This document shows positions 1-21,741 of a stretch of 34,910 nt of DNA, piece after piece (position 1 is the stretch's first letter; each line of letters opens with the position of its first letter). The notes under the pieces were generated by a model. The model searched no databases. It saw nothing but the letters and a program-made list of their open reading frames with translations, and was not told the origin of the DNA. This DNA comes from Gammaproteobacteria bacterium (GTDB taxonomy: Bacteria; Pseudomonadota; Gammaproteobacteria; Enterobacterales; Alteromonadaceae): positions 1 to 34,910 of the forward strand of contig JAHIWM010000020.1 in NCBI GenBank assembly GCA_018815765.1, given 5' to 3'. Position numbers and translations under genes: made by a program.

Positions 1-716
1 CGGTACAGGTTTTTTGGATCGGCTTTGTTGTAATCCCAATCGGGCTGGAACGACGTGTTGTAGTGTTCCCACACCAGTCCCTGAGTTAAATCAGCCTGAC
101 GTACAGCTATGTTATACGCCAGCTGATTGGCGCGTTGCAGAAAGCGGTCATTGCCCGTCGCTTCAAAGGCTGCCAGCATGGCTTCACATAAATGCATATT
201 GGAGTTCTGACCCCGGTAGCTGCTTAAGACACCTGCAGGACTGAGTTCATCGGCATAAAGACCAGCATCGGCTTGCCAGAAGCGTTTTTCCAATAGCTGA
301 TAGACCCGGAATAAAGGCTCGTCACTGTGAATTAAACCGGCTTTACGGGCAGCTGCGTAGGCCAGCAACACAAAAGCATACCCATAAGCTTGTTGTGTCA
401 TATCCAGTGGTTGATGGTTTTCTAAGATCCAGGCGTAGGTTTCGGTGTCAGCTTGCCAGTGCACCTGCTCCAGATACTTCAGGCCATGTTTTGCTATTTG
501 CAGATAGTCATCGCGCTGAAATACCAAAGCCGCTGTGGCGTAATTGACAATAATACGGGTGCTGCTGACCAGCTGCTTAAAGTGGGTATCAAACAGGCTG
601 CCATCGTCGAGAAAGTTTTGATGATAGCCGCCAGTGCTGTCCACTACTCTGTCGGTATAAAAATCCAGAATGCTCTGGCAATGCGCCAGCAGGAAATCTT
701 GCGAATAATAGTTCAT
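1..716 (-). CDS. AGE-family sugar isomerase, probably mannose isomerase (3' end outside window)
   Basis: Leftward gene whose C-terminal part lies beyond the window; 238 codons are visible. The reading frame begins MNYYSQDFLL and contains the AGE / N-acylglucosamine 2-epimerase family hallmark RGQNSNMHLCEA near residues 168-179, with H175 matching a conserved active-site histidine. The many aromatic residues and alternating helices fit the (alpha/alpha)6 barrel of the family, which includes N-acylglucosamine 2-epimerase, mannose isomerase (YihS-like) and cellobiose epimerase. The start codon lies one base after the fructokinase stop, so it is the fourth gene of the GH92-permease-fructokinase operon. 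With an alpha-mannosidase and a fructokinase beside it, mannose-to-fructose isomerisation is the best inference. An epimerase role cannot be excluded because the C-terminal catalytic histidine is not visible. Confidence 0.8.
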   Translation of the reverse strand, partial: MNYYSQDFLLAHCQSILDFYTDRVVDSTGGYHQNFLDDGSLFDTHFKQLVSSTRIIVNYATAALVFQRDDYLQIAKHGLKYLEQVHWQADTETYAWILENHQPLDMTQQAYGYAFVLLAYAAARKAGLIHSDEPLFRVYQLLEKRFWQADAGLYADELSPAGVLSSYRGQNSNMHLCEAMLAAFEATGNDRFLQRANQLAYNIAVRQADLTQGLVWEHYNTSFQPDWDYNKADPKNLY

Positions 717-717
717 A

Positions 718-1728
718 TCAGGCCCCAATAAAGAGTGAAGAAGGGAAGTCGTGCAGTTTATGGCCATGCCATGTTAACTGAGCTTTAACTGCCGCCAAGT
801 CGGGTAAGGCGGTAAAGGCGCCGGGCTGGGTCACTGCATAAGCACCGCAGTGGGCGGCAAAATGCAGCGTTTGTTCCAGTGCTTTGGTTTGAGTAAAAAA
901 GCCTGCTAAATCAGTATGTCCGCTTAAGCCATATAAAAAACCACCAATAAAGGCATCACCGCCAGCCGTGGTATCCAAAGCCTGCACTTTGGGTGGGGTG
1001 ATCAGTCCTGAGCTGGTCTGGGTAAAATACTCTATGGTTTTAGCGCCGTCTGTCACCAGCAGTAACTGGCAACCCTGCGCCAGACAATGCTGAATATAAG
1101 CTTCGGTTTGACCTTGAGCTAAATACTCCAGCTCATCACGGGAGAATTTCACCAGATCGGCTTGAGTGACCAGTTGGTTCACCAGACTTCTGTCAGCCTG
1201 GCCGCTAGCCCACAGATTGTGCCGCAGGTTGACGTCAAAACTAACCAGATTACCTGCCGCTTTGGCTTTACGGACTACTGCATTCGTACAACTGGCAATA
1301 TCAGCTGTGGTCAGGGTGTTGCTGCAAAAATGCAGCATAGTGTCGCCGCTGAACCATAGATCACTGACTTGGTCGGAGCGCAAAATCACATCAGCCGTCT
1401 GATGGCGATGGAAAGAAAAACTGCGCTCACCTTTGTCATCCAAGGCGACAAAAGCCAAAGCTGTGCTGGCTGTTGGATGTTGCAATAAAAAGCGGGTATC
1501 GACGCCATAAGCCACTAAAGCGTCGCGCAGAAAGTTACCAAACATATCCTGACCCACCTGACCGGCAAAATAAGCCTGACCGCCTAAACGCGCTACAGCT
1601 ACAGCAGCATTAGCCGGAGCGCCGCCCGGATACTGGCAAAACACTGCTAAATTCAGCGGTCCTTGCGGAGTATGGCCTGTGTTTAAAAAGTCGATTAAGG
1701 CTTCGCCGAAACAAAGAATTTTTCTCAT
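718..1728 (-). CDS. PfkB-family fructokinase
   Basis: 336-residue cytoplasmic sugar kinase of the PfkB/ribokinase family, at the usual family length. The N-terminal signature GGAPANAAVAVARLGG is at residues 35-50. The C-terminal signature DTTAGGDAF is at 252-260, with the catalytic base D258 and the anion hole formed by the preceding glycines. The protein resembles ScrK/CscK-type fructokinases most closely; a mannokinase or other hexokinase activity in the family is possible. It overlaps the upstream permease gene by four bases (ATGA) and ends one base before the isomerase, indicating translational coupling. In context it would convert fructose made by the isomerase from mannose into fructose-6-phosphate. 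Confidence 0.85.
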   Translation of the reverse strand: MRKILCFGEALIDFLNTGHTPQGPLNLAVFCQYPGGAPANAAVAVARLGGQAYFAGQVGQDMFGNFLRDALVAYGVDTRFLLQHPTASTALAFVALDDKGERSFSFHRHQTADVILRSDQVSDLWFSGDTMLHFCSNTLTTADIASCTNAVVRKAKAAGNLVSFDVNLRHNLWASGQADRSLVNQLVTQADLVKFSRDELEYLAQGQTEAYIQHCLAQGCQLLLVTDGAKTIEYFTQTSSGLITPPKVQALDTTAGGDAFIGGFLYGLSGHTDLAGFFTQTKALEQTLHFAAHCGAYAVTQPGAFTALPDLAAVKAQLTWHGHKLHDFPSSLFIGA

Positions 1729-2993
1729 GATCGAGTCTCAGTCTGAGGATTAGAAATGGTCTCTGGCTGCGCTGTGGTGACAGAAAGGCGAGAACCTGAC
1801 AGCGCATACCAGCAGATATAAAAATACGCCAGCATAGGCACCACAAAACTCCATTGCACTGAACTGTTGTCCGCGACCAGGCCTTGCAGTAAAGGTAAAA
1901 CGGCGCCTCCTACTATGGCCTGACACAATAAACCTGAACCTCTGCTGGTCAAAGGGCCAAGGCCACGAATCGCTAAAGTAAAAATAGTTGGGAACATAAT
2001 AGAGTTAAAAAAGCCTACAGCCAAAACCGACCACATCGCCAGCTCGCCACTACTATTGATGCTCAGCATTAATAACAGGATCACTAGGACTGCATTGGTC
2101 GCCAGTACATAAATGGGCGCAATAAAACGGGTTAATAAGGCACCAACAAAACGGCCTATCATGGCGCCGCCCCAGTAATAGGACACCATTTGACTGGCTT
2201 CACGTTCATTGAGTCCGGCAATGTTGCTGTCGGCAAAGTAGTTCACCAGAAAGCTGCCGATAGAGACTTCAGCGCCTACATACAAAAATATCGCCAGAGC
2301 ACCAAACACCAGATGTTTATGGTGCCAGATACTACCGCCAGTTGTTTGCTCTGTGCTTTGTTCGGTTTGTATCTGTGGTAGTTTCAGAAATATAAAACCA
2401 AAAGCCGTTAGCAGCACAGCGCCTGCCAAAATCAGATAAGGCAGTTGCACTGCGCTGGCGCTGTTGGTTGTGGCCGCAGCAAAAATTAACGCAGCTCCAA
2501 ATAATGGCGCCAACGTATGGCCTAAAGAGTTAATAGCCTGGGCCAGACTTAAGCGGCTGGCAGCAGTTTTTTCTGAACCTAACACCGCCACATAAGGATT
2601 GGCCGATACCTGCAAAATGGTAATGCCTGATGCCAAAACAAAAAGGCCACATAAAAACACCGCATATATTGATACCTCGGCTGCCGGGTAAAACAGCAGG
2701 CAACCTAAAGCCATAGTGCACAAGCCGGTAATGATGCCACGCACATAACCTATACGTTCAATCAGCTTGCCGGCAAAAGGCGAGACAATAAAATAAGCGC
2801 CAAAAAAACACAGCTGAACCAGCATGGCCTGAGTGTAACTCAGCTCAAAAGCGGCCTTCAGATGAGGGATCAAAATGTCATTCAGCGCCGTGATAAAACC
2901 CCAGATAAAAAACAAAGTGGTCATAGCAATAAAAGCAAAGTTGCTACTTACGCCAGGACTGGCGCTGTGATTGCTGTTATGGATGATCGCCAT
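1725..2993 (-). CDS. FHS-family (FucP/GluP-like) MFS sugar:H+ symporter
   Basis: 422-residue, highly hydrophobic protein of about twelve membrane segments. The opening segment MTTLFFIWGFITALNDILIP (residues 24-43) is typical of the fucose/glucose-galactose permease (FHS) branch of the major facilitator superfamily, as is the later stretch ILQVSANPYVAVLG (residues 126-139). It is an inner-membrane sugar:proton symporter. The gene starts three bases after the GH92 stop and overlaps the fructokinase by four bases. Being locked between an alpha-mannosidase and a fructokinase, its probable substrate is mannose. This is inference from context; the family also carries fucose, glucose, galactose and N-acetylglucosamine. 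Confidence 0.85.
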   Translation of the reverse strand: MAIIHNSNHSASPGVSSNFAFIAMTTLFFIWGFITALNDILIPHLKAAFELSYTQAMLVQLCFFGAYFIVSPFAGKLIERIGYVRGIITGLCTMALGCLLFYPAAEVSIYAVFLCGLFVLASGITILQVSANPYVAVLGSEKTAASRLSLAQAINSLGHTLAPLFGAALIFAAATTNSASAVQLPYLILAGAVLLTAFGFIFLKLPQIQTEQSTEQTTGGSIWHHKHLVFGALAIFLYVGAEVSIGSFLVNYFADSNIAGLNEREASQMVSYYWGGAMIGRFVGALLTRFIAPIYVLATNAVLVILLLMLSINSSGELAMWSVLAVGFFNSIMFPTIFTLAIRGLGPLTSRGSGLLCQAIVGGAVLPLLQGLVADNSSVQWSFVVPMLAYFYICWYALSGSRLSVTTAQPETISNPQTETRS

Positions 2994-2996
2994 AGG

Positions 2997-5372
2997 TTAG
3001 TCTCTTGTTTTTGCTTTAGGGGTTTCAGGGCTGGATTGCTCCAGCGACATGGAATAAGGCGCAGTATGTTCTGCACTGGCCCAGCTTTTTTCTGGTTCAG
3101 ATCCCATCAGGAAATTCAGTTGGCCACCTGCCTGAATAATTGTGTGATCCAGCCAGCTTTGTAGCAACGGTCGACCATTTAAACTGGCTTGCTGGATATA
3201 AGGCGAATCGGCATTGTTCTGCTGCGCTGTGATCACAAAGTCTTTGCCGTTTGGCATAGTTAGCGTGACTTTGTCGAATAGCGGACTGCCAATCACATAC
3301 TGGCCTGCACCAGGTGTGACAGGATAAAACCCCATAGCGCTGAACACATACCAGGCAGAAGTTTGGCCGTTGTCTTCATCGCCGCTGTAGCCATCAGGCG
3401 TGGCTGAATACAGCTTATTCAGTACTTCTCTGACTTTTTGCTGGGTTTTCCAAGGTTGTCCGGCGTAGTTATACAGATAAATCATATGCTGAATGGGCTG
3501 ATTGCCATGGGCATAGTTGCCCATATTGACGATTTGCATCTCACGGATTTCATGGATAGTAAAACCGTAGTAGGAATCATCAAAAACCGGCGGCATCTCA
3601 AATACCTGGTCCAGTTTATCGAGAAAGGCCTGATTGCCTCCCATCAGTTGTTTTAGCCCTTCGATGTCGTGAAACACAGACCAGCTGTAATGCAAAGCGT
3701 TGCCTTCGGTGAAGGCGTCACCCCATTTCAGTGGATTAAATGGCGTCTGGAAACTGCCGTCTTTATTTTTACCTCGCATCCAGCCGGATTCGGCATCAAA
3801 TAAATGATGGTAATTCAAAGAACGCTGATAAAAGGTTTTTGCATCTTCAGTTTTGCCTAAAGCTGTCGCCAGCTTATACAGATTAAAATCAGCAAAGGCA
3901 TACTCCAGAGTGCGGGCGGCGTTTTCATGAATACCAGCATCATAAGGCACGTAACCTAAAGTGTTGTAGTACTCAAGGCCTGCTCTGCCTACAGAACTCA
4001 CTGGACGGCCTTGCTCTACTTCGGCGTTTTTCAGCGCCGCCTGATACAAGGTTTCAATATCAAAACCACGGATACCTTTAAGGTAAGCGTCGGCAATATT
4101 AATAGCCGAGTTGGAGCCTATCATGACGTCACGATGACCAGGACTGGCCCATTCAGGTAACCAGCCAGACTCTTTATAGGTATTGACCAGCCCCTGCATA
4201 ATTTGCGCGTCCAGCTCCGGATACATCAGGGTGAAAAACGGGAATACGGCGCGGAAGGTGTCCCAGAAGCCATTGTCAGTAAACATATAACCAGGCAACA
4301 CCTGACCATTGTAAGGACTGTAATGCACGATTTGATCGTTTTTATCCAGTTCATAAAACTTACGCGGAAATAGCATCAGCCGGTACAAGGTGGAATAAAA
4401 AGTCCGCACCTGATCCAGATCCTGATCATCCACTCTGATGCGCGACAATTGCTGTTGCCAGCTGGCTTTAGCTTTCGCCATAGTGCTGTTGAAGTCGTCT
4501 TTCGCCAGTTCACGGTCCAGATTCAGCTGAGCTTGTTCCGGGCTGATAAACGAAGAGGCAACGCGGGCATGCACTTGTTCGCCTTTTTTGGTTTTAAAAC
4601 CAATCACAGCTCCTACATGCTGACCTTCACTCTGCTGGCTATTGGCCTGCAGCTGCCAGTTGTCGTGCCAGGTGTGAGTTAGTTCAAATTCTTTATCAAA
4701 TTCAATCACAAAGTAGTTATGAAAATTCTCCGGCACACCGCCGTGGTTATTGCGGGCATAGCCAATAATTTTGCGTTGTTTTGGTAGTATTTTTACCATC
4801 GAACCTTGGTTAAAGGCATCCAGAATAATGTAAGCCTGCTGGGTTTCGGGGAAGGTAAAACGAAACTGCGCAGCCCGCTCTGTTGGGGTGACTTCTGCTG
4901 TGACGTCATAGTCGGCCAGATACACCGAATAATGGTGAGGGCTGGCCTGTTCGGCTTTATGCGAAAACCAGGAAGCCCGCTCTTCTTCGTTAAACTTCAG
5001 CTCCCCTGTCACCGCCATCAGCGAAAAAGCGCCGTAGTCGTTTAACCATGGGCTTGGCTGGTGAGTTTGTTTAATACCGCGGATTTTTTCATCATCGTAT
5101 TTGTAGGTCCAGCCATCACCCATAGCACCTGTCATCGGGGTCCAGAAATGCATGGCCCATGGCGTGGCAACAGCAGGATAGGTATTACCATTGGATAAAC
5201 TGAAGCTGGAGTCTGTGCCCATCAATGGATTGACATAACTGACTAAATCCTGCGACACCAGACTGGCTGCAGGTTGAAAATGGGGCTCAGTTGTATTGCG
5301 CTGCCCTGCTGGTGTGCAGGCGACTATAAACAGACTGACAATGGCGGCAAGGCTGACTTCACGCGTCATCAT
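2997..5372 (-). CDS. GH92 alpha-mannosidase, predicted lipoprotein
   Basis: 791-residue exo-acting alpha-mannosidase of glycoside hydrolase family 92, a calcium-dependent inverting family acting mainly on alpha-1,2 (also 1,3/1,4/1,6) mannosides of N-glycans and mannans. The N-terminal signal ends in the lipobox IVAC with C19, so it is probably anchored on the periplasmic or outer membrane. The beta-sandwich N-domain covers roughly residues 40-290 and the (alpha/alpha)6 domain follows. The acid motif FTEGN has E556 as proton donor. The GDEDNGQTSAWY stretch (664-675) carries the aspartates (D665/D667) expected to activate water. Length is normal for the family. It is the first gene of the leftward mannose operon and has a LacI-type operator about 90 bases upstream. 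Linkage specificity cannot be read from sequence. Confidence 0.93.
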   Translation of the reverse strand: MMTREVSLAAIVSLFIVACTPAGQRNTTEPHFQPAASLVSQDLVSYVNPLMGTDSSFSLSNGNTYPAVATPWAMHFWTPMTGAMGDGWTYKYDDEKIRGIKQTHQPSPWLNDYGAFSLMAVTGELKFNEEERASWFSHKAEQASPHHYSVYLADYDVTAEVTPTERAAQFRFTFPETQQAYIILDAFNQGSMVKILPKQRKIIGYARNNHGGVPENFHNYFVIEFDKEFELTHTWHDNWQLQANSQQSEGQHVGAVIGFKTKKGEQVHARVASSFISPEQAQLNLDRELAKDDFNSTMAKAKASWQQQLSRIRVDDQDLDQVRTFYSTLYRLMLFPRKFYELDKNDQIVHYSPYNGQVLPGYMFTDNGFWDTFRAVFPFFTLMYPELDAQIMQGLVNTYKESGWLPEWASPGHRDVMIGSNSAINIADAYLKGIRGFDIETLYQAALKNAEVEQGRPVSSVGRAGLEYYNTLGYVPYDAGIHENAARTLEYAFADFNLYKLATALGKTEDAKTFYQRSLNYHHLFDAESGWMRGKNKDGSFQTPFNPLKWGDAFTEGNALHYSWSVFHDIEGLKQLMGGNQAFLDKLDQVFEMPPVFDDSYYGFTIHEIREMQIVNMGNYAHGNQPIQHMIYLYNYAGQPWKTQQKVREVLNKLYSATPDGYSGDEDNGQTSAWYVFSAMGFYPVTPGAGQYVIGSPLFDKVTLTMPNGKDFVITAQQNNADSPYIQQASLNGRPLLQSWLDHTIIQAGGQLNFLMGSEPEKSWASAEHTAPYSMSLEQSSPETPKAKTRD

Positions 5373-5463
5373 AGTTTCAACTCTGAAAATACCCTTTTTA
5401 TTGCCAGGGCTTAACAGATTTACGTTATGCCTGACTGAGGGCTTAGTGAATAAGTAACCTGAC

Positions 5464-5691: not shown

Positions 5692-6711
5692 ATGACCAAT
5701 ATAAAAAAGGTAAGTGAGTTGGCGGGTGTGTCCACTGCAACCGTCTCAAGAACATTAAAAGACCCTGATTTAGTGTCACCGCAAACCCGTGAAAAGGTGA
5801 TGGTTGCTGTGCAGCAGGCAGGTTATCGCCCGAACTGGATGGCGACCAGCGTCAAAACCGGTAAATCAAATTCTATAGTGGTATTGGTGCCTAACCTGGT
5901 GAATCCTTTTTTTATGCGCATCATTGAAGGCATAGAGCAGGCGGCGCAGGAAAAGGGTTATTCAGTATTGCTGGGTGATACGCAGGGTTCAGCCAGTCGG
6001 GAGCATGAATATGCCAGCATGCTGCTGACCAACAGAGCTGACGGCCTGATCCAGCTGGACCACTCTTTTCCCTTTTCACAGGACGATGCTCATCTGGTCG
6101 GTAATTTACCTGTGGTCAGCGTCTGTGAGCGTATTGAAGGCGATAAAAAATATCCGGTGATTGAACTGGATAACTATGCTGCAGCGCGGGCAGTCACTCA
6201 TCATCTGATCAGTTATGGCCATCGCAGTTTTGGTGTGATTGCCGGACAAATCAGCAGTCAAATTCACCATGACAGACTGGCCGGTATTAAAAGTGTGCTG
6301 GCAGAAGAAGGTATAGTTTTTGATGAGGCGATGCTGGTCGGTGGCAGTTATAAAATAGAAACAGGCGTGGAAGGTGTGCAGCAGTTGTTAACCAGAGCAC
6401 AACCACCAACCGCTATTATTTGTTTTAATGACGATATAGCCATAGGGGCTTTGTACGCCATTAAAAAGCATGGATTACGGGTTCCGCAGGACATATCGGT
6501 CACAGGTTTTGATAATGTCCGGGTTGCAGCTTATATGGATCCACCGCTGACTACTGTGGATCAGCCCGCTTATCAGATGGGGCGTCGGGCAGTTGAAGTG
6601 CTTATTCAGCAGATTAACCGTCAGCCGTTAACCAGAACCAGAGAAATTCTGCCTTTTAGCCTGTTAGAGCGACAAAGTACAGGACCTGTTTCCAAGCCCA
6701 ACCAGCATTGA
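5692..6711 (+). CDS. LacI-family transcriptional regulator of the glycan locus
   Basis: 339-residue regulator with the LacI layout. A helix-turn-helix at residues 4-23 (VSELAGVSTATVSRTL core) is followed by the hinge ending in AGYRPN (residues 43-48). A periplasmic-binding-protein-like effector domain covers about 60-330. Its N-terminal half resembles CytR-type members. Such proteins bind a short palindrome as dimers and release it on binding a sugar. The gene stands alone between the two divergent carbohydrate units, and candidate operators lie on both sides, so it probably controls the GH92 operon, the TonB receptor unit and itself. The effector could be mannose or a mannosyl oligosaccharide; this is inference. 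It matches the role assigned to ManR-type regulators in related bacteria. Confidence 0.88.
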   Translation: MTNIKKVSELAGVSTATVSRTLKDPDLVSPQTREKVMVAVQQAGYRPNWMATSVKTGKSNSIVVLVPNLVNPFFMRIIEGIEQAAQEKGYSVLLGDTQGSASREHEYASMLLTNRADGLIQLDHSFPFSQDDAHLVGNLPVVSVCERIEGDKKYPVIELDNYAAARAVTHHLISYGHRSFGVIAGQISSQIHHDRLAGIKSVLAEEGIVFDEAMLVGGSYKIETGVEGVQQLLTRAQPPTAIICFNDDIAIGALYAIKKHGLRVPQDISVTGFDNVRVAAYMDPPLTTVDQPAYQMGRRAVEVLIQQINRQPLTRTREILPFSLLERQSTGPVSKPNQH

Positions 6712-6730
6712 CTCTGAGTGCTGGTTCCGT

Positions 6731-9957: not shown

Positions 9958-10018
9958 TGGATTAAACGACGAGACAACCTGGCTGTAAGAGCCTGAAAAG
10001 TTGGGTAGAGGATTAATA

Positions 10019-13007: not shown

Positions 13008-13931
13008 ATGACTGACAAAGTTGTAGCCACTGAACAGACAACAAGCAAAGCCTTGTATCTCGGCATAGACGGTGGAGGCAGCCATTGCCGGGTTATGTTG
13101 CAGGATGCTACCGGCCTTTTACTTGGCGAGGGTCGTGGCGGCCCCGCCAATCCTGTTTACGGCACAGAACAAGCTATCCAGTCTATTCTCACTGCAACAG
13201 ACGAAGCCTTGTTACAGGCGGGTTTTACTCCGGCTGATAAACACCAACTGATTGTCGGAGCAGGCCTTGCTGGTCTTCACTTGCCACAGATGCAGCAGGT
13301 GATGCAGCAATGGCAACATCCGTTTAAAGCTTTATACCTGACGACAGACTTACATGTAGCTGCAACAGGAGCCCATCAGGGCTTGGATGGTGCAGTTATT
13401 ATTCTGGGGACTGGTTTTAGCGCTTTATCTGCTCATCAGGGCCAACTGACCCAAATTGGCGGTTACGGTTTTCCGATTAATGCCACTTGCAGCGGTTCAT
13501 GGTTTGGCCTTGAAGCCGTTAAAGCTGTGTTGCTTGATGCTGATGGCGTAGGCTTGCCCAGCCGTCTGACTTCTGTACTGCTGAAAGATAAAACGGCCAC
13601 AGCACTGGCGGAACACTATATGAATGCTTCTGCCACACAATATGCCCAGCTTGCACCACTGGTGTTTGAGCTGGCTGATCTGGGTGACAAAGTGTGTCTG
13701 TCTTTTATTCAGCATGGCGCTGCTTTTATCAATCAGGTGATCCGCAAACTTCTCGCCACTCAGGTATCTCGCGTGTCGATGATAGGTGGCATCTCTGAAC
13801 GTATTAAGCCCTGGCTGGATCCTCAATTATCGGTATGTATCAACCCTGCTTTATCGTCACCGGAGCAGGGTGCCATTTTATTTGCCAGACAGTCGCATCA
13901 GGCTGCTCTGCGTGTTGCTAAGGAAAACTAA
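13008..13931 (+). CDS. BadF/BadG-family N-acetylglucosamine (or glucosamine) kinase
   Basis: 307-residue cytoplasmic kinase of the actin-like ASKHA fold. The phosphate-1 loop LGIDGGGSHCRV is at residues 18-29. A TTD motif with D114 is at the position of the catalytic aspartate of eukaryotic-type GlcNAc kinases, and the second phosphate loop LGTGFSALS is at 133-141. Length is normal. The segment after GGYGF (151-155) reads PINATCSGS, where many relatives have a GDEGSG motif, a deviation worth noting. The family includes GlcNAc kinase and glucosamine kinase (GspK). It is the first gene of a tight six-gene operon with a GH85 and an aspartylglucosaminidase, which both release GlcNAc-type ends, so GlcNAc-6-phosphate formation is the likely role. 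GAAGGA precedes the ATG. Confidence 0.82.
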   Translation: MTDKVVATEQTTSKALYLGIDGGGSHCRVMLQDATGLLLGEGRGGPANPVYGTEQAIQSILTATDEALLQAGFTPADKHQLIVGAGLAGLHLPQMQQVMQQWQHPFKALYLTTDLHVAATGAHQGLDGAVIILGTGFSALSAHQGQLTQIGGYGFPINATCSGSWFGLEAVKAVLLDADGVGLPSRLTSVLLKDKTATALAEHYMNASATQYAQLAPLVFELADLGDKVCLSFIQHGAAFINQVIRKLLATQVSRVSMIGGISERIKPWLDPQLSVCINPALSSPEQGAILFARQSHQAALRVAKEN

Positions 13932-14905
13932 TGCGCTCAAGACGTGATTTTCTAAAATTATCTGCTTTATTAGGTCTGACGACAGGCCTGATGAAAACGA
14001 CAACTGCTTTTGCTGCAACAAAAAAACAAGCCGAAGCCATAGTGGTGTCCACCTGGGAACATGGTTTGGCTGCCAATGAAGCGGCCTGGCAAATACTGGC
14101 CAAAGGTGGACGGGCTTTGGATGCGGTTGAAACCGGAGTTCGGGTGCCTGAAGCCGACCCTAAAGTGCGGACTGTAGGTTATGGCGGTTATCCGGATCGG
14201 GACGGTAAAGTCACACTGGATGCCTGCATTATGGACGAGCATATGAACTGCGGTTCTGTGGCCTTTTTGCAGAATATTAAACACCCGATTTCAGTAGCCC
14301 GGCTGGTGATGGAAAAAACACCTCATGTGATGCTGGTCGGCGAAGGCGCAAAGCAGTTTGCGTTGCAGCAGGGTTTTAAAGAAGAAAATCTGCTGACCCC
14401 AGAATCCGAAGCCGACTGGAAAGCCTGGTTAAAAGATCAAAAAATCCAGCAAATTAATATCGAAAATCACGACACCATCGGTATGCTGGCGCTGGACGCT
14501 GCAGGGAATTTAAGTGGTGCTTGTACCACCAGTGGCGCTGCTTACAAAATGCATGGCCGGGTTGGTGATTCACCGCTGATTGGCGCTGGTTTGTATGTGG
14601 ACAACGACATTGGTGCAGCTACTGCGACAGGTATGGGTGAGCTGATGATCAAAACAGTCGGCAGCCATCTGGTGGTCGAATTGATGCGTCAGGGCGCTAG
14701 TCCGGAAGAAGCCTGTAAACAAGCTGTGCTGCGCATTGCCCGTAAACTGGGTGATTATGCCCAGTTTCAGGTTGGTTTTCTGGCCTTAAATAAACAGGGC
14801 CATTATGGCGCTTATGGCATTCAGCCTGGTTTTAATTACGCGGTACAAAACAAAGCGGGCAGCAAACTGATTGATGGCAAAAGCCTGCTTGGAGCCAAAG
14901 CCTGA
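13931..14905 (+). CDS. Aspartylglucosaminidase (N4-(beta-N-acetylglucosaminyl)-L-asparaginase), Tat-exported
   Basis: 324-residue N-terminal-nucleophile hydrolase that cleaves the amide bond between GlcNAc and asparagine in N-glycopeptide remnants. A Tat signal SRRDFLK (residues 3-9) and hydrophobic stretch end around AFA (26-28), so the enzyme is probably periplasmic. The autoprocessing and nucleophile motif HDTIGM has T182 as the expected new N-terminus of the beta chain after self-cleavage between D181 and T182. The substrate-binding GRVGDSP (209-215) matches the conserved Arg/Asp pair of the bacterial enzyme from Elizabethkingia/Flavobacterium. These motifs favour glycosylasparaginase over isoaspartyl peptidase. 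The start overlaps the kinase stop by one base (TAATG) and the stop overlaps the GH85 start. This gene is the strongest single pointer to N-glycans as the substrate of the locus. Confidence 0.9.
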   Translation: MRSRRDFLKLSALLGLTTGLMKTTTAFAATKKQAEAIVVSTWEHGLAANEAAWQILAKGGRALDAVETGVRVPEADPKVRTVGYGGYPDRDGKVTLDACIMDEHMNCGSVAFLQNIKHPISVARLVMEKTPHVMLVGEGAKQFALQQGFKEENLLTPESEADWKAWLKDQKIQQINIENHDTIGMLALDAAGNLSGACTTSGAAYKMHGRVGDSPLIGAGLYVDNDIGAATATGMGELMIKTVGSHLVVELMRQGASPEEACKQAVLRIARKLGDYAQFQVGFLALNKQGHYGAYGIQPGFNYAVQNKAGSKLIDGKSLLGAKA

Positions 14906-16626
14906 TGGTGCGGTTCTGGTTTGTTTTGTTGTGCCTGTCAGGCGCAGGTTTTGCGGCGCAGGCAGAACTACTGCCTGATCAGCCGCCTTTTGCTTTAACT
15001 CTTCAGCAGGCCAGAGACTGGTCACCACAGGCACCAACAGCCAGTGTGGAGAATGTATCGCAGGTGCCGCTGGCCCGTCGTATTAGCGCGCCACTGGCTG
15101 GCCAGCAGCAACTGGATACTCAGGCCAAAGTCTTGTATGCACCTGATGGCATGAACAATTTTGCCAACTACCTGAAGATGCAGCCGCAGTTTAATTTGTA
15201 CAACTTTACTCACTGGTCACAGATTGATGTACTGAACTGGTTTGCCGGCACTGCAGATTTAACAGTGCAAATTCCAGCCAGACCCTGGGTTGATACCGCC
15301 CATAAAAACGGCGTTAAAGTCATAGGCTCCGTGTTTTTGGGGATAGCCCAGTGGGGTGGTAATCCGGATACAGTGGAAGCTTTACTGGAGCAAGATAATC
15401 AGGGCCGTTTTATTCTGGCGGATAAGCTGATCCAGATGGCAGACTACTATGGTTTTGATGGCTGGTTGATTAATCAGGAAACGGATTTAACGGCAGTCAA
15501 AGATGCGCAGAATCAGCTGGTCAAAGGCAAAAAAGACCCAGAGCGTGGCCGCGAATTAGCAAAGCGTTTATTGGCTTTTATGCAGTATCTGACCGCCAAC
15601 GCACCTCAGGGTATGGAAATTCACTGGTACGATTCGATGCTCGCTTCCGGTGAAGTGCGCTGGCAAAACCAGCTGAATGCGAAAAACCAGCAGTTCCTGC
15701 AGGCGCAAGTACCTTCATCTGACGCTATGTTCCTTAATTACTGGTGGGACCAGGCTATGGTGCGGTCTTCCCGGCAAAAAGCGCTGGAACTGGGTCGCAG
15801 CCCTTATGATGTTTACACCGGCGTTGACCTCTGGCCAAGCCGGGATGCACAGCGTGCTTTTAGCTCTTACCAATGGCTGGACTGGTTATTTGATGGCCAT
15901 AAAGCGCTGAGTTCTATCGCGTTATTTGCACCTAATGTGAATTTTAACTTTGAAGGTGAAACCCATACTCCAGCCTTCAGCCGCTTTCGTACTGACCCCA
16001 CTGACGTGTCGTCTTTTTATGCCACAGAAAGCCGGATTTTTGCCGGTGACAATCTGAACCTTGCACTGGTGGACAAATCCGGTTGGAAAGGATTGGGGGC
16101 TTATTTGCCAGCTAAATCCAGCCTGCTGAGTTTGCCTTTTAGCAGCAGTTTTAATACGGGTCAGGGCAAAGTCATGATGCAGCAAGGCAAAAAAACCGGT
16201 GGTGCCTGGACTGATATCAGTCGGCAGGATTTGTTACCCACCTGGCAATTTGCTGTGCAGGGCCGCAACACATTGCAACTCAGCTACGACTTTGATCAGC
16301 CTTATCAGGGCGGCAGTTCATTAGCTGTGCGCGGAACAGCCACAAAATCCAGTCTGATGCCTTTGTATCACAGCTCTGTGGTGCTAAGTGCAAACAGCAA
16401 AATCCAGTTGATCAGTCGGGGGCAAAGCCAGGGATTAAAGCTGTATTTGCAAACGGCAGAGGGAGAGCGTTTTCAGCTGCCATTGCAGCCTTCCACTGAC
16501 TGGCTGTCCCAAAGCGAATCTTTAGCCGCTCTGGCAGGTCGCAATATAGTGCAGATAGGTTTACTGACAGAAGGAGCCGCTGAAGCTCTGGATGCCCGTC
16601 TGGGTTTACTGGAGATTTCGCTATGA
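14905..16626 (+). CDS. GH85 endo-beta-N-acetylglucosaminidase
   Basis: 573-residue secreted enzyme that cuts the beta-1,4 bond within the GlcNAc-GlcNAc core of N-glycans, leaving one GlcNAc on the protein (Endo-A/Endo-D type, family GH85). A type I signal peptide ends near AQA (residues 18-20). The TIM barrel covers about 70-370 and includes YNFTHWSQIDVLNWF (99-113) and GFDGWLINQE (183-192). N190 and E192 form the N-x-E pair used in this family for substrate-assisted catalysis, with E192 the acid/base. Beta-sandwich material follows to the C-terminus. It has no anchor or LPXTG motif and is compact for the family. It overlaps the upstream aspartylglucosaminidase and the downstream cutC-like gene (ATGA), showing tight coupling. 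Confidence 0.9.
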   Translation: MVRFWFVLLCLSGAGFAAQAELLPDQPPFALTLQQARDWSPQAPTASVENVSQVPLARRISAPLAGQQQLDTQAKVLYAPDGMNNFANYLKMQPQFNLYNFTHWSQIDVLNWFAGTADLTVQIPARPWVDTAHKNGVKVIGSVFLGIAQWGGNPDTVEALLEQDNQGRFILADKLIQMADYYGFDGWLINQETDLTAVKDAQNQLVKGKKDPERGRELAKRLLAFMQYLTANAPQGMEIHWYDSMLASGEVRWQNQLNAKNQQFLQAQVPSSDAMFLNYWWDQAMVRSSRQKALELGRSPYDVYTGVDLWPSRDAQRAFSSYQWLDWLFDGHKALSSIALFAPNVNFNFEGETHTPAFSRFRTDPTDVSSFYATESRIFAGDNLNLALVDKSGWKGLGAYLPAKSSLLSLPFSSSFNTGQGKVMMQQGKKTGGAWTDISRQDLLPTWQFAVQGRNTLQLSYDFDQPYQGGSSLAVRGTATKSSLMPLYHSSVVLSANSKIQLISRGQSQGLKLYLQTAEGERFQLPLQPSTDWLSQSESLAALAGRNIVQIGLLTEGAAEALDARLGLLEISL

Positions 16627-17342
16627 CGCAGCTGGAAATCTGTATTAACGCCGATGACCCACAGCTGGATGCCAATGTCGCCGCAGCATTGCAAGGTGGT
16701 GCCAGCCGTATTGAGCTTTGTGCTGATATGCAGCAACAAGGCATGACACCAAGTCTGATTGCTATGCAAAAAGCCCGTCGCGCTTTTGCAGCTACACCAG
16801 GATTACTGGTGATGGTGCGCTTTCGCAGTGACGATCAACTCCAGACAAAAGCTGAGCTGGCCATTATGCAACAGGCTATTGCTCAGGCGGCGGATGCCGG
16901 AGCCAATGGTGTTGTGATGGGGCTATTAAATGATCAACGCCAGTTGGATTTACCAGCCCTGGAGTTACTGGTCAATCAGGCGAAACGGCTTGGACTTCAG
17001 GTCACTTTTCACCGTGCTTTTGATGCTATTCATGACCAGAGTCAGGCACTGAATCAACTGATTGATTTGGGCGTCGACAGAGTGCTGAGTGCGGGCACTT
17101 TATGGGGCAGTGATTTAGGGGTGATGCACGGCCTTGATCGTTTACAGCAACTGAAAATTCAGGCCGCCGGCCGGATTGAGCTGGTGGTGGGTGGTGGCGT
17201 GAGTCTGGACAACCTGAGCAGGATAGTCGACAGCTTAACACCCGCAGGAAAACTCTGGTCTGTGCACAGTTATTCGGCTGTGTTCAGTCAGGGCAGAGTC
17301 GACCCTGAAAAAGTGGCCGCTATGGTCCGGCTTTGTCAATAA
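16623..17342 (+). CDS. cutC: CutC-family TIM-barrel protein
   Basis: 239-residue cytoplasmic protein of the CutC family, close to the E. coli length of 248. Conserved blocks are GGASRIELCADMQQQGMTPS (residues 26-45), TFHRAFDA (about 130-137), RVLSAG and the glycine-rich VVGGGVSLDN. One conserved block usually reading IRPRGGDF is instead VRFRSDD here. The family was named for copper homeostasis, but that role is disputed and its biochemical function is unsettled. The four-base overlap with the GH85 gene and the position before the beta-mannosidase suggest a job in glycan or GlcNAc metabolism. No metal-export or copper genes are near. Family assignment is firm; function is open. Confidence 0.85.
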   Translation: MTQLEICINADDPQLDANVAAALQGGASRIELCADMQQQGMTPSLIAMQKARRAFAATPGLLVMVRFRSDDQLQTKAELAIMQQAIAQAADAGANGVVMGLLNDQRQLDLPALELLVNQAKRLGLQVTFHRAFDAIHDQSQALNQLIDLGVDRVLSAGTLWGSDLGVMHGLDRLQQLKIQAAGRIELVVGGGVSLDNLSRIVDSLTPAGKLWSVHSYSAVFSQGRVDPEKVAAMVRLCQ

Positions 17343-17395
17343 ACACGCCGTATGACCGCTCATATCGCTAAGACAGTAACAGTTTTAACCTTGCA

Positions 17396-19945
17396 ATGGA
17401 CATTATGACAACTCATCACTCTCTTTCTCTTGATGCTATTTTTAGTCTGAATGGCGACTGGACTTTTTCTCAGGCGGGTCAGAACAGCTGGCATGCGGCA
17501 ACTGTGCCTGGCTGTAATTTTACCGATCTGCTGGCTAATGGTCTGATAGAGGACCCCTTTTACCGGGATAACGAAAGTCGTCTGCAATGGATAGAACAAC
17601 AAGACTGGCATTACCGTAAATCCTTTTGGTTGGATGAGAGCTGGCTAAACACAAGCGAACAAGCAGATCAGTGTATTGAGCTGGTGGCTGAAGGCCTGGA
17701 TACCTTCTGCGATCTGTATCTGAATGGCCAGAAAATCGGCAGCAGCCAGAACATGTTTGTTGGGCAACGAATCTCTTGCCACTCCCTGCTCAAAGCCGGT
17801 GAAAATCTGCTGGAGTTGCAGTTCCGTTCACCTATTCAGCAAAGCTTACCGGCCCACAAAGCCGCTGGTTTTACCTATCCGGCTGAAAATGACAAATCAG
17901 AAGAAAAGCTCAGCGTGTATTGCCGCAAAGCACCTTGTCATTTTGGCTGGGACTGGGGCCCACGTTTTGTCACCAGCGGTATCTGGCGGTCGATTTATTT
18001 ACAGCGACTGGATTCTGTCCGCATTGCGGATCTGCATTATGTGCAGCATAGCCTCAATGCAGCTGAAGCCAGTTTTAGTTTTGATATGCAACTGCAGGTA
18101 CTGGCGGCCCAAAAAGTCACATTACTGGTGGAATGCCAACAAGCACCAGAGCTTAACCAAACCCTGGAGTTGCAATTAGACGGTTCTGAACAGTTGCAGC
18201 GGCTGGATTTCTCTCTGACTCAGCCGCAACTCTGGTGGCCTAATGGTTTGGGCGACGCCTTTTTGTATGACTTTAGTTTTACGCTGCTGATTGATGGTCG
18301 CAAGGCCGATAGCCGCTCTGAACGTATAGGCCTGCGCACTATAGAAGTAGTAAACCAGCCGGATGAAATGGGGCTGTCGTTTTTCCTGAAAGTGAATGAT
18401 GTACCTGTGTTTATGAAAGGTGCTAACTATATTCCGGGCGACAGTTTTATCCATCAGATGACGCCAAAGCGCCATGCCGCTGACTTTGCTGCTGTGGTCG
18501 CCGCCAATATGAATATGTTGCGGGTCTGGGGTGGTGGTGTTTATCAGGATGATGAATTTTACCGGCTGGCTGATCAGCATGGCATCCTGATTTGGCAGGA
18601 CTTTATGTTTGCCTGTACTTTGTACCCGGCCGATCCGGCTTTTCTGGACAATGTGCGTGCTGAAGCTCACTACAATATCAAACGTTTACGTAACCATCCT
18701 TGTCTGGCACTTTGGTGTGGTAACAATGAAGTGGATATGGCAATCAAACACTGGCAGTGGCCGGAAAAATTTGGTTATAGCGATGAGTTGTACCAGCGCC
18801 TGAAGCAGGACTATATCCGCTTGTTTGACCAATGCTTGCCACAAGCTGTACAAGAACTGGATACAGAGCGTTTTTACCTGCGTTCTTCGCCTATAGGTTT
18901 CTGGGAAGAAGATGCTGATCATATGGGCAATCACCACTTCTGGGGCGTCTGGCATGGTGAACAGCCTTTTAGTGAATACAAAAAGCGTATTCCGCGTTTT
19001 ATGACGGAGTTTGGTTTTCAGTCTTTCCCTATCGATGCTTCTATGGCACGTTTTACCTTGCCAGAAGACTTGCAGTTAAACTCAGACGTACTAAAAGTGC
19101 ATCAGAAGCACCCCAGAGGCAACGCGCTGATCCGCAGTTACATGCAGCAGGAATATCAGGATCCCAGAGATTTTTCGGCCTTGTTGTATTTAAGCCAGGT
19201 GCAGCAGGCTGAAGGGCTAAAGCAGGCTTTTGAAGCACATCGTGCAGCTATGCCGTTTTGTATGGGCACTTTGTACTGGCAACTGAACGACACTTGGCCA
19301 GCAGCGTCCTGGTCTGGTATCGATTATTATGGCCGCTGGAAAGCCTTGCATTATCAGGCCAAACGCAGCTTCAGGCCCGATTTGCTGGTCGTCGATGAGC
19401 AAGCTGGCCAAATCACAGTGCGATTGATCAGTGATCGTCAACAGAGTCTGGACGCTGAATTGCAGCTGGAGCTCTGGACTTTTAACGGTCATTTAGTCTG
19501 GCAGCAACAGCAAGGAGTGCAGACTCCGATAAATGCTGCTGTGTTGCTACTTGAGCTGGATAAAGCCATGCTGCTGGCAGACAAAAACGTTGAAGAGCTA
19601 GTGTTACAGGTCAGATTAACCGACAAAGAGCAGGGTTTACTGGCAGATAACCTGTATTATTTTGTACCAGCTAAACAGCAAAAGCTGGCTGCACCCAAGC
19701 TGGACATCAGGATGCAGGTTGTGGATGGATTGTTGTCATTACAGCTTTGCAGTAGTGCTCTGATCCGCCAGTGTTGCATTGAAGTGGACGGAGCCAACGG
19801 CAATTTTTCGGATAACTTCTTTGATTTGCTGGCAGGGCAGCCAAAAAAAATCGAACTGGTTATGCCGGGTTTAAGCCAGTCTGACGTCAGAGCCGTCGCC
19901 CAGACCCTGCGTTGTCGTAGCCTGTACGACAGTTATACGGAGTAA
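17396..19945 (+). CDS. GH2 beta-mannosidase, cytoplasmic
   Basis: 849-residue glycoside hydrolase of family 2 with the beta-mannosidase layout: sugar-binding jelly-roll (about 10-200), Ig-like domain (205-315), TIM barrel (320-640) and C-terminal beta domains. Barrel motifs are MKGANYIPGDSF (340-351), RVWGGGVYQDDEFY (376-389), WCGNNE with acid/base E445, and MTEFGFQSFP with nucleophile E538. There is no signal peptide, so it acts inside the cell on imported Man-beta-1,4-GlcNAc or related beta-mannosides. An in-frame ATG nine bases downstream (17405) is an alternative start; neither has a strong Shine-Dalgarno sequence. The adjacent symporter gene begins five bases after the stop, suggesting import and hydrolysis are paired. 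Length is typical. Confidence 0.92.
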   Translation: MDIMTTHHSLSLDAIFSLNGDWTFSQAGQNSWHAATVPGCNFTDLLANGLIEDPFYRDNESRLQWIEQQDWHYRKSFWLDESWLNTSEQADQCIELVAEGLDTFCDLYLNGQKIGSSQNMFVGQRISCHSLLKAGENLLELQFRSPIQQSLPAHKAAGFTYPAENDKSEEKLSVYCRKAPCHFGWDWGPRFVTSGIWRSIYLQRLDSVRIADLHYVQHSLNAAEASFSFDMQLQVLAAQKVTLLVECQQAPELNQTLELQLDGSEQLQRLDFSLTQPQLWWPNGLGDAFLYDFSFTLLIDGRKADSRSERIGLRTIEVVNQPDEMGLSFFLKVNDVPVFMKGANYIPGDSFIHQMTPKRHAADFAAVVAANMNMLRVWGGGVYQDDEFYRLADQHGILIWQDFMFACTLYPADPAFLDNVRAEAHYNIKRLRNHPCLALWCGNNEVDMAIKHWQWPEKFGYSDELYQRLKQDYIRLFDQCLPQAVQELDTERFYLRSSPIGFWEEDADHMGNHHFWGVWHGEQPFSEYKKRIPRFMTEFGFQSFPIDASMARFTLPEDLQLNSDVLKVHQKHPRGNALIRSYMQQEYQDPRDFSALLYLSQVQQAEGLKQAFEAHRAAMPFCMGTLYWQLNDTWPAASWSGIDYYGRWKALHYQAKRSFRPDLLVVDEQAGQITVRLISDRQQSLDAELQLELWTFNGHLVWQQQQGVQTPINAAVLLLELDKAMLLADKNVEELVLQVRLTDKEQGLLADNLYYFVPAKQQKLAAPKLDIRMQVVDGLLSLQLCSSALIRQCCIEVDGANGNFSDNFFDLLAGQPKKIELVMPGLSQSDVRAVAQTLRCRSLYDSYTE

Positions 19946-19950
19946 GAAGG

Positions 19951-21741
19951 ATGAGTTTAAGCTGGATTGACCTGCTTATTATTGCCTTGTATATGCTTGG
20001 GACCTTAGGTCTGGGTATGTATATTGCGAAAATGGCCAGCACGGATATGAATGCCTATTTTTTAGCAGGCAAAAAAATCCCGTGGTGGGCGCTGGGTGTA
20101 TCCAATGCTTCAGGCATGTTTGATATAGCAGGTACCATGTGGCTGGTCGCCATGTGTTTTGTTTATGGTTTAAAAAGTGTCTGGTTGCCATGGGTCTGGC
20201 CGATTTTTAATCAGGTTTTTCTGATGATTTATCTGTCGCTCTGGTTACGCCGCTCTAATGTGATGACAGGAGCTCAGTGGCTGGAAACCCGCTTTGGCAC
20301 AGGCAGGGGCGTTGAGCTTTGTCAGTTAGTGGTCGTGGCTTTTGCTATTGTCAGCGCTATTGGTTTTATTGCTTATGGTTTTAAAGGCATAGGCAAGTTT
20401 GCCGCTATCTTTTTCCCCTGGCAGTTGTCGCCCGATACCTATGCTTTGATTATTTTTGCAGTCACCACTTTGTATGTGATCAAAGGCGGTATGTATTCAG
20501 TGGTATTCACTGAAGTGATGCAGTTTGTCATTATGACCATAGCGGCTTTAGCTGTTGGCATTATTGCTATGACGCTGGTCAGTCCCGAACAAATTAAAGC
20601 TGCTACCCCACAAGGCTGGGACAGTATCTGGTTTGGCTGGCAACTGGATCTGAACTGGACCGGCTTGATTGATAGCGTACAACACAAAGTCCAGCAAGAT
20701 AATCTGGAGCTATTTGGCCTGATGATTATGATGATGCTGTTTAAAGGTGTGCTGTTTAGTCTGGCAGGCCCTGTGCCCAATTACGATATGCAGCGAATTC
20801 TGGCCGCCCGCACTCCAAAAGACGCGGCTAAAATGAGTGGTTTTGTCTCGCTGGTGATGTTTTTCCCACGTTACATGATGGTGGCAGGCCTGACGGTGCT
20901 GGCACTGGTGTTTATGGGGCCGGAAATTCAGGCTCAGGGGGCGGCTTTTGATTTTGAACAGATTTTGCCTTACGCCATTCAGAATTTTGTGCCTGTGGGT
21001 CTGGCCGGATTATTGATTGCCGGTTTGCTGGCTGCTTTTATGTCGACGCTGGCGGCTTCGCTGAATGCGGCACCTGTCTACATAGTCAACGATATCTACA
21101 AACGCTATTTCCGGCCTGATGAGCCAACTCAGACTTATGTTCGGTTAAGTTACTGGGTGTCTTTACTGCTGGTGGTGGTCGGGGTTGGCCTTGGCTTTAT
21201 GTTGTCCAGTATCAACGACATTATGCAGTGGATTTTTGGCGCACTGTTTGGCGGTTATGCCGCTGCTAACTTATTGAAATGGCATTGGTGGCGTTTTAAT
21301 GCCTATGGTTATTTCTGGGGCATGATGGCGGGTTTAGTGGCTGCATTATTTTTGCCTTTGCTGTTGCCAGATACTCATCCTTTATACGCCTTCCCTTTAT
21401 TGCTGCTACTGAGTTTAGTAGGTTCCATTGCCGGAACTCTGTTGACACCCGCTGAATCGGATGAAGTCTTGTGTAGTTTCTACCGGCAGGTGCGGCCCTG
21501 GGGTTTCTGGCGACCTGTGCATGATAAAGTGCTGGCTCAGGATCCATCTTTTGCTGCGGATACCCATCCATGGCGTGATGCGTTTAATATTCTGGTGGGT
21601 ATGACCTGGCAGATTGCGTTAGTGGCCATGCCGATTTATCTGGTGATCCAGCAATGGTACCAACTGGCGTTGGCCACTATGCTGGCTGTGTTGACATCCT
21701 GGATCCTGAAGAAAAACTGGCTGGATAAACTCAAAGACTAA
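19951..21741 (+). CDS. Sodium:solute symporter (SSS family), probable glycan disaccharide or sugar importer
   Basis: 596-residue inner-membrane protein with about 13-14 hydrophobic segments and the LeuT-like layout of the SSS family. It begins with an outside-start helix and the early AYFLAGKKIPWWALGVSNASG region (residues 33-53, FLAGR-type signature). A conserved mid-helix region GLLIAGLLAAFMSTLAASLNAAPVY lies at about residues 354-378. It uses the sodium gradient to bring in small solutes. It is the last gene of the GlcNAc/GH85/GH2 operon and starts five bases after the beta-mannosidase stop, which makes Man-GlcNAc, mannose or GlcNAc plausible substrates. Its stop codon is embedded in the edge of a 55-bp palindrome. 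Confidence 0.85.
   Translation: MSLSWIDLLIIALYMLGTLGLGMYIAKMASTDMNAYFLAGKKIPWWALGVSNASGMFDIAGTMWLVAMCFVYGLKSVWLPWVWPIFNQVFLMIYLSLWLRRSNVMTGAQWLETRFGTGRGVELCQLVVVAFAIVSAIGFIAYGFKGIGKFAAIFFPWQLSPDTYALIIFAVTTLYVIKGGMYSVVFTEVMQFVIMTIAALAVGIIAMTLVSPEQIKAATPQGWDSIWFGWQLDLNWTGLIDSVQHKVQQDNLELFGLMIMMMLFKGVLFSLAGPVPNYDMQRILAARTPKDAAKMSGFVSLVMFFPRYMMVAGLTVLALVFMGPEIQAQGAAFDFEQILPYAIQNFVPVGLAGLLIAGLLAAFMSTLAASLNAAPVYIVNDIYKRYFRPDEPTQTYVRLSYWVSLLLVVVGVGLGFMLSSINDIMQWIFGALFGGYAAANLLKWHWWRFNAYGYFWGMMAGLVAALFLPLLLPDTHPLYAFPLLLLLSLVGSIAGTLLTPAESDEVLCSFYRQVRPWGFWRPVHDKVLAQDPSFAADTHPWRDAFNILVGMTWQIALVAMPIYLVIQQWYQLALATMLAVLTSWILKKNWLDKLKD

Follow-up and report, generated by a model that had tools for sequence, protein, structure and literature searches.

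A 34,910-nucleotide stretch of gammaproteobacterial DNA (contig JAHIWM010000020.1 of assembly GCA_018815765.1, family Alteromonadaceae), which we call the window, carries 13 genes between its left end and position 21741, arranged as two divergent runs. We read these genes as a locus for the use of high-mannose N-glycans, joined to a conserved module for N-acetylglucosaminyl-asparagine (GlcNAc-Asn), in which a protein of the CutC family is probably a cytoplasmic enzyme of amino-sugar salvage working beside a GlcNAc kinase and not a copper protein. We put the probability of this reading at about 0.7. The gene families, gene order, co-occurrence, retained residues and selection on the trio of GlcNAc kinase (NagK), aspartylglucosaminidase (AGA) and CutC reported below are observed by computation, and from these we infer the function of the locus as a whole. 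The locus is one version of an already known type, and its interest stems from CutC: here, in at least two phyla, this family gains a concrete position in the salvage of amino sugars, next to GlcNAc kinase and glycosylasparaginase.

Gene Content and Proposed Pathway

Pfam and NCBIfam models were run against the proteins encoded between positions 1 and 21741. The initial annotation had named a set of families in this region, and every one of them is present above its Pfam cut-off. Among the genes of the locus is nagK (13008..13931, + strand), a kinase gene of the BadF type (PF01869; solved relative 1zc6) whose best NCBIfam model, NagK_SO3507, scores 346 bits, under the cut-off of 370. The gene for AGA follows (13931..14905, +), encoding an Asparaginase_2 protein with a twin-arginine leader, RRDFLK, read from the translation. 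Its score of 426 bits to the Elizabethkingia glycosylasparaginase 1p4k, compared with at most 143 bits to isoaspartyl peptidases, led us to reject the latter assignment. The beta chains of solved glycosylasparaginases align from residue 182, which we take to be the catalytic Thr that begins the beta chain, so that the protein groups with the glycosylasparaginases by both similarity and the position of the beta-chain start. The GH85 endo-beta-N-acetylglucosaminidase gene (14905..16626, +) has a Sec-like leader in its translation, matches PF03644 at 275 bits, above the Pfam cut-off, and Endo-A (2vtf) at 232 bits, and retains the INQET active-site motif with its catalytic Asn and Glu, aligned with 3fha. 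The start of the cutC gene (16623..17342, +; PF03932, 168 bits against a cut-off of 23.3) overlaps the GH85 gene end. Beyond it are a GH2 beta-mannosidase with mannosidase Ig domains (17396..19945, +; PF22666, PF17786 and PF17753), closest among characterized proteins to BtMan2A (2je8, 766 bits), and a sodium:solute symporter (SSS; 19951..21741, +; PF00474, 123 bits), a candidate importer of Man-beta-1,4-GlcNAc or GlcNAc. No leader is seen by eye in the translations of GH2, CutC and NagK.

Upstream of nagK, a TonB-dependent receptor of the TIGR01782 type (7054..9957, +; PF00593 and PF07715; TIGR01782, 613 bits) precedes a putative surface lipoprotein for glycan binding, with four F5/8-type C domains (10001..12913, +; PF00754 in four stretches) and an LYGC lipobox read from its translation. 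The latter occupies the place where SusD would stand; none of the 13 proteins matches a SusD model, and the locus thus has a TIGR01782-type receptor where a SusC/SusD pair might be sought. The F5/8-C repeat matches residues 105–222 of the GH92 chain 7nsn, ahead of the GH92 part of that chain, and domain scans assigned no domain to residues from about 30 to 370. We considered that this protein might be an enzyme and rejected the idea, since the scans gave no catalytic domain. A match to it recurs in all 26 of the other GH85 loci described below. On the opposite strand lies a GH92 alpha-mannosidase (2997..5372, −; PF07971/PF17678), with 587 bits for the catalytic domain. It is likely a lipoprotein, with a leader that ends in the lipobox IVAC when read by eye, and its nearest characterized relative is BT3990 (chains 2wzs/2wvx, 1027 bits).

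The remaining genes of the two runs encode a LacI-family regulator (5692..6711, +; PF00356 and PF13377), a major facilitator superfamily (MFS) hexose transporter of the gluP subfamily (1725..2993, −; TIGR01272, 340 bits, above cut-off), a PfkB sugar kinase (718..1728, −; PF00294, 183 bits) and a sugar isomerase (3..767, −; PF07221, 180 bits). For the mannose isomerase of the initial annotation, the GlcNAc_2-epim family stands, and the gene itself is cut at the window start, leaving the N-terminal 255 amino acids only; the nearest solved chain is 3gt5, and the best NCBIfam model, D-mannose isomerase, gives 95 bits against a full-length cut-off of 600. The best NCBIfam model of the kinase is fructokinase, at 238 bits and under the cut-off of 450. 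The assignments of both proteins reach the family level only, as D-mannose isomerase-like and fructokinase-like.

The locus continues outside the window. The source genome (4.1 Mb) is divided into 287 contigs, of which the window is C165, and contig C162 carries, at 13604–16698, a second GH92 gene (754 amino acids) with the remainder of the isomerase gene. C162 ends inside the cut isomerase gene and overlaps the window start by 293 bases, inexactly, at 91.8 percent identity; on this overlap, the two contigs are very probably neighbors in the genome. The imperfect identity may be a sign of strain mixture in the assembly. A separate run on contig C202, of nagK, nagB-II, nagA, nagP and nagX-like genes, includes NagB-II, NagP and NagK above their NCBIfam cut-offs and NagA above TIGR00221, with NagX below. 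These nag genes complete, on paper, the path that leads from GlcNAc to fructose-6-phosphate.

Counting genes alone, the locus holds an endoglycosidase, alpha- and beta-mannosidases and a GlcNAc route. The pathway that we propose from them, with compartments, transporter substrates and each reaction in the source organism predicted, would begin at the outer membrane, where the TonB receptor and the F5/8-C lipoprotein would bind the glycan or glycopeptide. GH85 would cut between the two core GlcNAc residues, and the two GH92 enzymes, one in the window and one just past its left end, would trim alpha-mannose. The SSS symporter would import the residual Man-beta-1,4-GlcNAc, which cytoplasmic GH2 would split. 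Mannose would then pass through the MFS transporter, isomerase and fructokinase to fructose-6-phosphate, and GlcNAc through NagK and the nagA and nagB-II products encoded elsewhere in the genome. On the protein side, exported AGA would cleave GlcNAc-Asn, a reaction in which the enzyme yields aspartate and 1-amino-GlcNAc. The N-glycan reading, which the initial annotation had put forward, is well supported because of the families, the nearest characterized relatives and the conserved gene order; that account was incomplete in that it left out CutC, the second GH92, and the nagA, nagB-II and nagP genes located elsewhere.

Conservation of the Locus around GH85

In a sample of 295 genomes of the family, GH85 occurs in 27, belonging to 12 of 52 genera, with the source genome counted. 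About 20 kb was fetched around GH85 in each of the 26 other genomes, and a recognizable version of the locus was found in all 26. The commonest order is LacI-TonB receptor-F5/8-NagK-AGA-GH85-CutC-GH2-SSS-GH92, with NagK-AGA placed at the far end in a smaller group. By matches within these 20-kb stretches, the receptor, the F5/8 protein and GH85 are found in 26, AGA, CutC, GH2 and SSS in 25 each, NagK and GH92 in 24 each, and LacI in 23. GH85, AGA, NagK and GH2 are all present in 22 of the 26, the exceptions being L029 and L036 (no NagK), L053 (no GH2) and L054 (no AGA). The only fetched locus that lacks CutC, from genome G497, has it in the next 20 kb (L105), beside GH92, MFS, PfkB and isomerase genes. 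In a class-wide sample of 274 genomes, GH85 is found in two, one of them the source genome and the other a weak match of 29 bits.

A twin-arginine-like leader is present in all 25 AGA N-termini printed from GH85 loci (19 RR and 6 KR), and an RRxF leader in 20 of 20 Bacteroidota AGAs; an automatic pattern that asked for FL or LL-type endings counted 11 of the latter, the rest being RRxFI. Twin-arginine-type leaders in both phyla (window 13931–14020; L029–L053; L231–L250) would imply export of the folded, self-cleaving proenzyme.

CutC Accompanies Glycosylasparaginase in Two Phyla

Within the family sample, CutC occurs in 43 genomes and AGA in 38, and the two coincide in 36. CutC is therefore present in 36 of 38 genomes with AGA versus 7 of 257 without it. 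The two AGA genomes that lack CutC are G565 and G483, the latter with an AGA match of 42 percent that is perhaps a different enzyme; the seven with CutC and no AGA are G293, G295, G311, G400, G411, G539 and G560. The pattern holds by genus (CutC in 14 of 14 AGA genera versus 1 of 38 others) and among genomes that have no GH85 (10 of 12 with AGA versus 6 of 256 without). When the family CutC genes were fetched (n = 45, that of the window excluded), NagK was found within 10 kb of 37, AGA of 34, and at least one of the two of 38. A class-wide draw gave CutC above the cut-off in 3 of 158 genomes, the source genome counted, which is too few for a test.

Bacteroidota, of which 247 genomes were drawn, show the same association. 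CutC occurs in 76 of these genomes, and AGA (called at E values up to about 1e-48) in 73 of the 76 versus 44 of the 171 others; AGA is found no more than 5 kb away from 37 of 78 CutC genes, against about 0.2 expected by chance. By blastp, GH92, GH2 or AGA lies near CutC in loci L203, L204 and L206, and at 6 of 60 loci (L207, L214, L221, L225, L228 and L230) the CutC found by profile was not recovered by this method. The Elizabethkingia AGA, used as a query, returned 80 AGA loci, with matches solely from Elizabethkingia, Soonwooa and Chryseobacterium. CutC is present in 79 of them, and in the 80th (L120) the contig stops 163 bases past AGA. Fisher tests of the CutC-AGA association in the Bacteroidota and family samples give P values of 1.5e-27 and 9e-37, uncorrected and with kinship ignored. 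Since gene orders and strands vary, pairing by descent alone is less likely. In the open-licence literature, we found no paper that pairs CutC with glycosylasparaginase or aspartylglucosaminidase.

Reduced Loci in the Same Genus

A natural deletion series within one genus also bears on the role of CutC. One genome of the same genus (locus L087) matches the window genome on both sides of the window site: rightward for 9.5 kb starting at flgN, and leftward along the acyltransferase side, whose counterpart in the window genome lies on C162. In L086 the match covers the left flank and, on the right, just 140 bases of flgN; in L251 it covers the left flank only. An acyltransferase-3 family gene flanks the site in four genomes (L279, on contig C162 of the source genome, 12324–13547; L086 12441–13826; L251 4899–6281; L087), as judged by Pfam match in L086 and L251 and by aligned DNA in the source genome and L087.

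Between the flanks, L086 and L087 carry NagK-AGA-CutC without GH85, GH2 or SSS; this trio thus forms a sub-module that close relatives have retained on its own. Compared with the window, both lack three stretches: one that runs from the second GH92 into the F5/8 gene, one made up of just GH85, and one of GH2-SSS. The seams measure at most about 30 bases. A remnant resembling the 3′ end of the F5/8 gene stands before NagK, of about 120–130 bases in L086 and L087 (77 percent identity including the following spacer) and about 100 in L251, which suggests loss of the glycan-cutting genes over their stepwise gain. Between L086 and L087, dN/dS is 0.08 for NagK, 0.04 for AGA and 0.18 for CutC, and these low values indicate that the trio is under selection in the absence of the glycan-cutting genes. 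In L251, from genome G565, AGA is truncated at 225 amino acids (7439–8116) and NagK is intact; no remnant of CutC is found in the L251 stretch, and no CutC in the genome.

The CutC Protein

The Pfam assignment of the window protein is supported by solved CutCs (3iwp, 1twd, 2bdq and 4r9x). An AlphaFold2 model has a TIM-barrel fold with a mean pLDDT of 91, and Foldseek with this model returns CutC chains at ranks 1–19, followed by MfnB (MJ1099), KDPGal aldolase, thiamine-phosphate pyrophosphorylase, ribulose-phosphate epimerase (RPE) and others. In an alignment of 114 sequences, the window's own entered twice, E5, E31, C33, G40, D134, L155, G158 and H215 are invariant, and R66 (0.99), H130 (0.98) and R68 (0.89) nearly so. 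The window protein is thus a CutC by profile score, by fold and by its conserved residues, E5, E31, C33, D134 and H215 among them. Most of the conserved residues sit in or just past strands, as assigned by DSSP on the model, and would lie on the active-site side of the barrel; by this placement, the modeled CutC looks like an enzyme.

CutC Neighborhoods Elsewhere

CutC matches 59 records in PLSDB, and 21 neighborhoods were opened, hand-picked for spread among 40 of the 59 matches listed; the picks skip Escherichia, Klebsiella, Salmonella and Proteus, and one Hymenobacter was reached via its AGA match. We counted as amino-sugar genes any of AGA, GH20, nagA, nagB, SIS, MurQ or a ROK/BadF kinase within 5–8 kb, the kinase part of this definition being loose. 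Such genes are near CutC in 11 of the 14 annotated neighborhoods (Qingshengfaniella, two Pseudoalteromonas, Paracoccus, Kozakia, two Hymenobacter, Sinorhizobium, Loktanella, Peteryoungia and Asticcacaulis), including all seven of the annotated alphaproteobacterial ones, and in these 14 no gene besides CutC itself is annotated for copper. The other seven records have no gene table around CutC, and calling of open reading frames (ORFs) was informative for four. A Persicobacter plasmid (L268, 2833–8364) carries consecutive genes for SusD, CutC, PNGase F and a transglutaminase-like protein, with GH92 nearby; an Aeromonas plasmid has a ROK kinase upstream of CutC; Rhizobium SSA_523 has M81-MFS-CutC; and Embleya has an ORF with an L-asparaginase II domain ahead of the CutC match.

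In L091 (4337–7912) and L256 (7983–16699), CutC-NagK adjoins a run of Gfo/Idh, xylose-isomerase-like and MFS genes, which resembles a keto-sugar pathway and continues in L256 with DUF1080, a GMC oxidoreductase and gluconate dehydrogenase subunit 3. Judging by their ORF lengths, L094 and L098–L101 may have this run as well.

Weighing the Alternatives

Several observations weigh against the reading given above. AGA needs free GlcNAc-Asn, and none of the 13 locus genes encodes a peptidase. Seven of the 45 family CutC genes lack both NagK and AGA in the surrounding 10 kb, and 41 of the 78 from Bacteroidota have no AGA inside 5 kb on their contig (38 with AGA elsewhere in the genome, 3 with none). 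Near such AGA-distant CutCs, most of 20 neighbor proteins scanned are unrelated, the sugar enzymes among them being a GlcN-6-P isomerase/PIG-L fusion, GH20, a melibiase and an NDP-sugar epimerase. A Parabacteroides and two Enterococcus plasmid neighborhoods (3 of 14) hold no related genes. The co-occurrence tests take no account of phylogeny, and in L251 the AGA end and CutC may both have gone in a single deletion. The window CutC also deviates from the usual MIRPRGGDF stretch, with both arginines retained. GH92 enzymes act on yeast mannan too, and the whole locus could instead serve the use of alpha-mannan of yeast, algal or plant origin, with GH85 incidental, an alternative that we regard as distinctly unlikely. 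For the main alternative substrate speaks growth on alpha-mannan of Alteromonas macleodii AD45, a strain with a GH85 and GH92 locus (PMC6972757), and a 2025 paper ties GH92/GH85/GH2 insertions to algal polysaccharides (PMC12838423). However, the AD45 paper reports comparable growth of strain MIT1002, which it ascribes to other enzymes (PMC6972757), and neither GH76 nor GH125 has a Pfam match among the 13 locus proteins. GH85, AGA, NagK and the beta-mannosidase are unneeded for mannan, yet all four are kept together in 22 of 26 relatives.

Assignment of the locus to N-glycans leaves more than one form for the role of CutC. AGA and PNGase both yield 1-amino-GlcNAc ends, and CutC could be a specific glycosylamine hydrolase that converts 1-amino-GlcNAc from either enzyme to GlcNAc and ammonia, the GlcNAc then being phosphorylated by NagK. 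The coupling to AGA in two phyla, the joint loss of the AGA end and CutC in L251, the Persicobacter arrangement next to PNGase F, and the retention of CutC with AGA and NagK where the glycan-cutting genes are gone would all fit. Nonetheless, 1-amino-GlcNAc hydrolyzes spontaneously, AGA has a leader and CutC none, and several Alphaproteobacteria have CutC with GH20, nagA/nagB or MurQ and no AGA in the stretch, so that this specific form seems doubtful. An extension of it, in which CutC from bacteria to humans handles 1-amino-GlcNAc ends from AGA or PNGase cuts and animal cytosolic CUTC does likewise for the products of NGLY1, we consider improbable. Those AGA-free alphaproteobacterial settings favor a general form over the specific one: CutC would act on GlcNAc or GlcNAc-6-phosphate, for example as an epimerase or anomerase, in any amino-sugar pathway, and AGA loci would be one setting. 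Indeed, CutC overlaps or abuts ROK/BadF sugar-kinase genes in Qingshengfaniella, Sinorhizobium, Pseudoalteromonas and Asticcacaulis, lies among nagA/nagB/GH20 in Kozakia, and is followed soon in the Foldseek ranking by sugar-phosphate TIM barrels (MfnB, KDPGal aldolase and RPE). Against this, AGA is present in 36 of the 43 family genomes with CutC, ROK and BadF kinases have other substrates as well, and use of GlcNAc is commoner than the 43 of 295 genomes in which CutC is found; we hold the general form to be a serious possibility at somewhat less than even odds. Finally, CutC could be the copper-homeostasis protein of its database name, placed in the locus by chance or for the metal need of a locus enzyme. 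The literature on this role is divided. Animal CUTC has RNAi and siRNA phenotypes under copper, and a copper homeostasis role is still held for the human protein, which nevertheless has no classic high-affinity copper site and a mode of action that needs defining (PMC11083455). In E. coli, the copper sensitivity of cutC mutants has been traced wholly to loss of the MicL RNA (PMC6538781). Elsewhere, CutC appears as "poorly characterized" or "perhaps intracellular trafficking of Cu(I)" (PMC9522356, PMC6769254, PMC3548706), or as just one entry among copper genes (PMC8565777). The copper name is therefore weak, and given the AGA association and the plasmid neighborhoods free of other copper genes, we find a copper role very hard to credit for the window protein.

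Flanking Features of the Window

To the right of position 21741 lie flagellar genes, with FlgN-like, FlgA, FlgB, FlgC-like, FlgD, FlgE, FlgG and FlgK proteins among those scanned. After them, at 33456–34148, is a gene resembling the REP-associated tyrosine transposases (Y1_Tnp, 45 bits; NCBIfam 68 bits, short of the cut-off of 80).

Comparison with Known Systems

The initial annotation held that the window uses a gene set different from that of comparable systems in Bacteroides and Xanthomonas. With respect to Bacteroides this stands in part: where the window has GH85, the Bacteroides thetaiotaomicron locus BT3983–BT3994 has BT3987, which we take to be a GH18 endo-beta-N-acetylglucosaminidase (ENGase), and where the window has a TonB-dependent receptor and an F5/8-C lipoprotein, that locus has a SusC/SusD pair. 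It is described as a high-mannose locus with the ENGase BT3987, SusC/D and three periplasmic alpha-mannosidases, and thus has an endoglycosidase, alpha-mannosidases and an outer-membrane receptor in common with the window (PMC7021837). The window GH92 is closest to BT3990 of this very locus. The main text of that paper mentions neither an asparaginase nor CutC (PMC7021837); the window locus encodes AGA and CutC, along with NagK and a GH2 beta-mannosidase.

The claimed difference does not extend to all Bacteroidota. In five displayed loci of Elizabethkingia and Chryseobacterium, AGA (63–65 percent identity), CutC (28–34 percent) and GH2 (36–37 percent) lie close together on one strand as in the window, with up to six ORFs between them. 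Unlike the window, these five loci have no match to GH85, NagK or SSS. The two genera have PNGase F and Endo F enzymes.

Nor is cutC foreign to the nix region of Xanthomonas, which is like the window in being a gammaproteobacterial N-glycan locus with a TonB receptor (nixD), an alpha-mannosidase (nixK), a beta-mannosidase (nixH) and cutC, as compared by gene list (PMC6718126). There, cutC (XAC3091) is one of 19 families confined to plant-associated Xanthomonadaceae genomes, and its spread over 138 genomes equals that of the nix genes; the authors label it copper or copper resistance (PMC6718126). For Xanthomonas, then, the literature already places cutC among N-glycan genes and reads no amino-sugar role from this. 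The nix region differs by added plant-glycan genes (fucosidase, hexosaminidase and galactosidase), and the paper names no asparaginase (PMC6718126), which also counts against our reading.

A further likeness is to Alteromonas macleodii, in which strain AD45 and the FDHY strains have GH85 and GH92, with or without GH2, in an inserted locus (PMC6972757, PMC12838423). The locus type is therefore already in print and, likened by description, is probably of the same kind as that of the window. The passages on these loci read them as serving alpha-mannan (PMC6972757) or algal polysaccharides (PMC12838423) and do not mention AGA, NagK or CutC. Our reading would recast this known Alteromonas locus type as an N-glycan locus with a glycan side and a GlcNAc-Asn side, and would alter the presumed diet of the bacteria that carry it.

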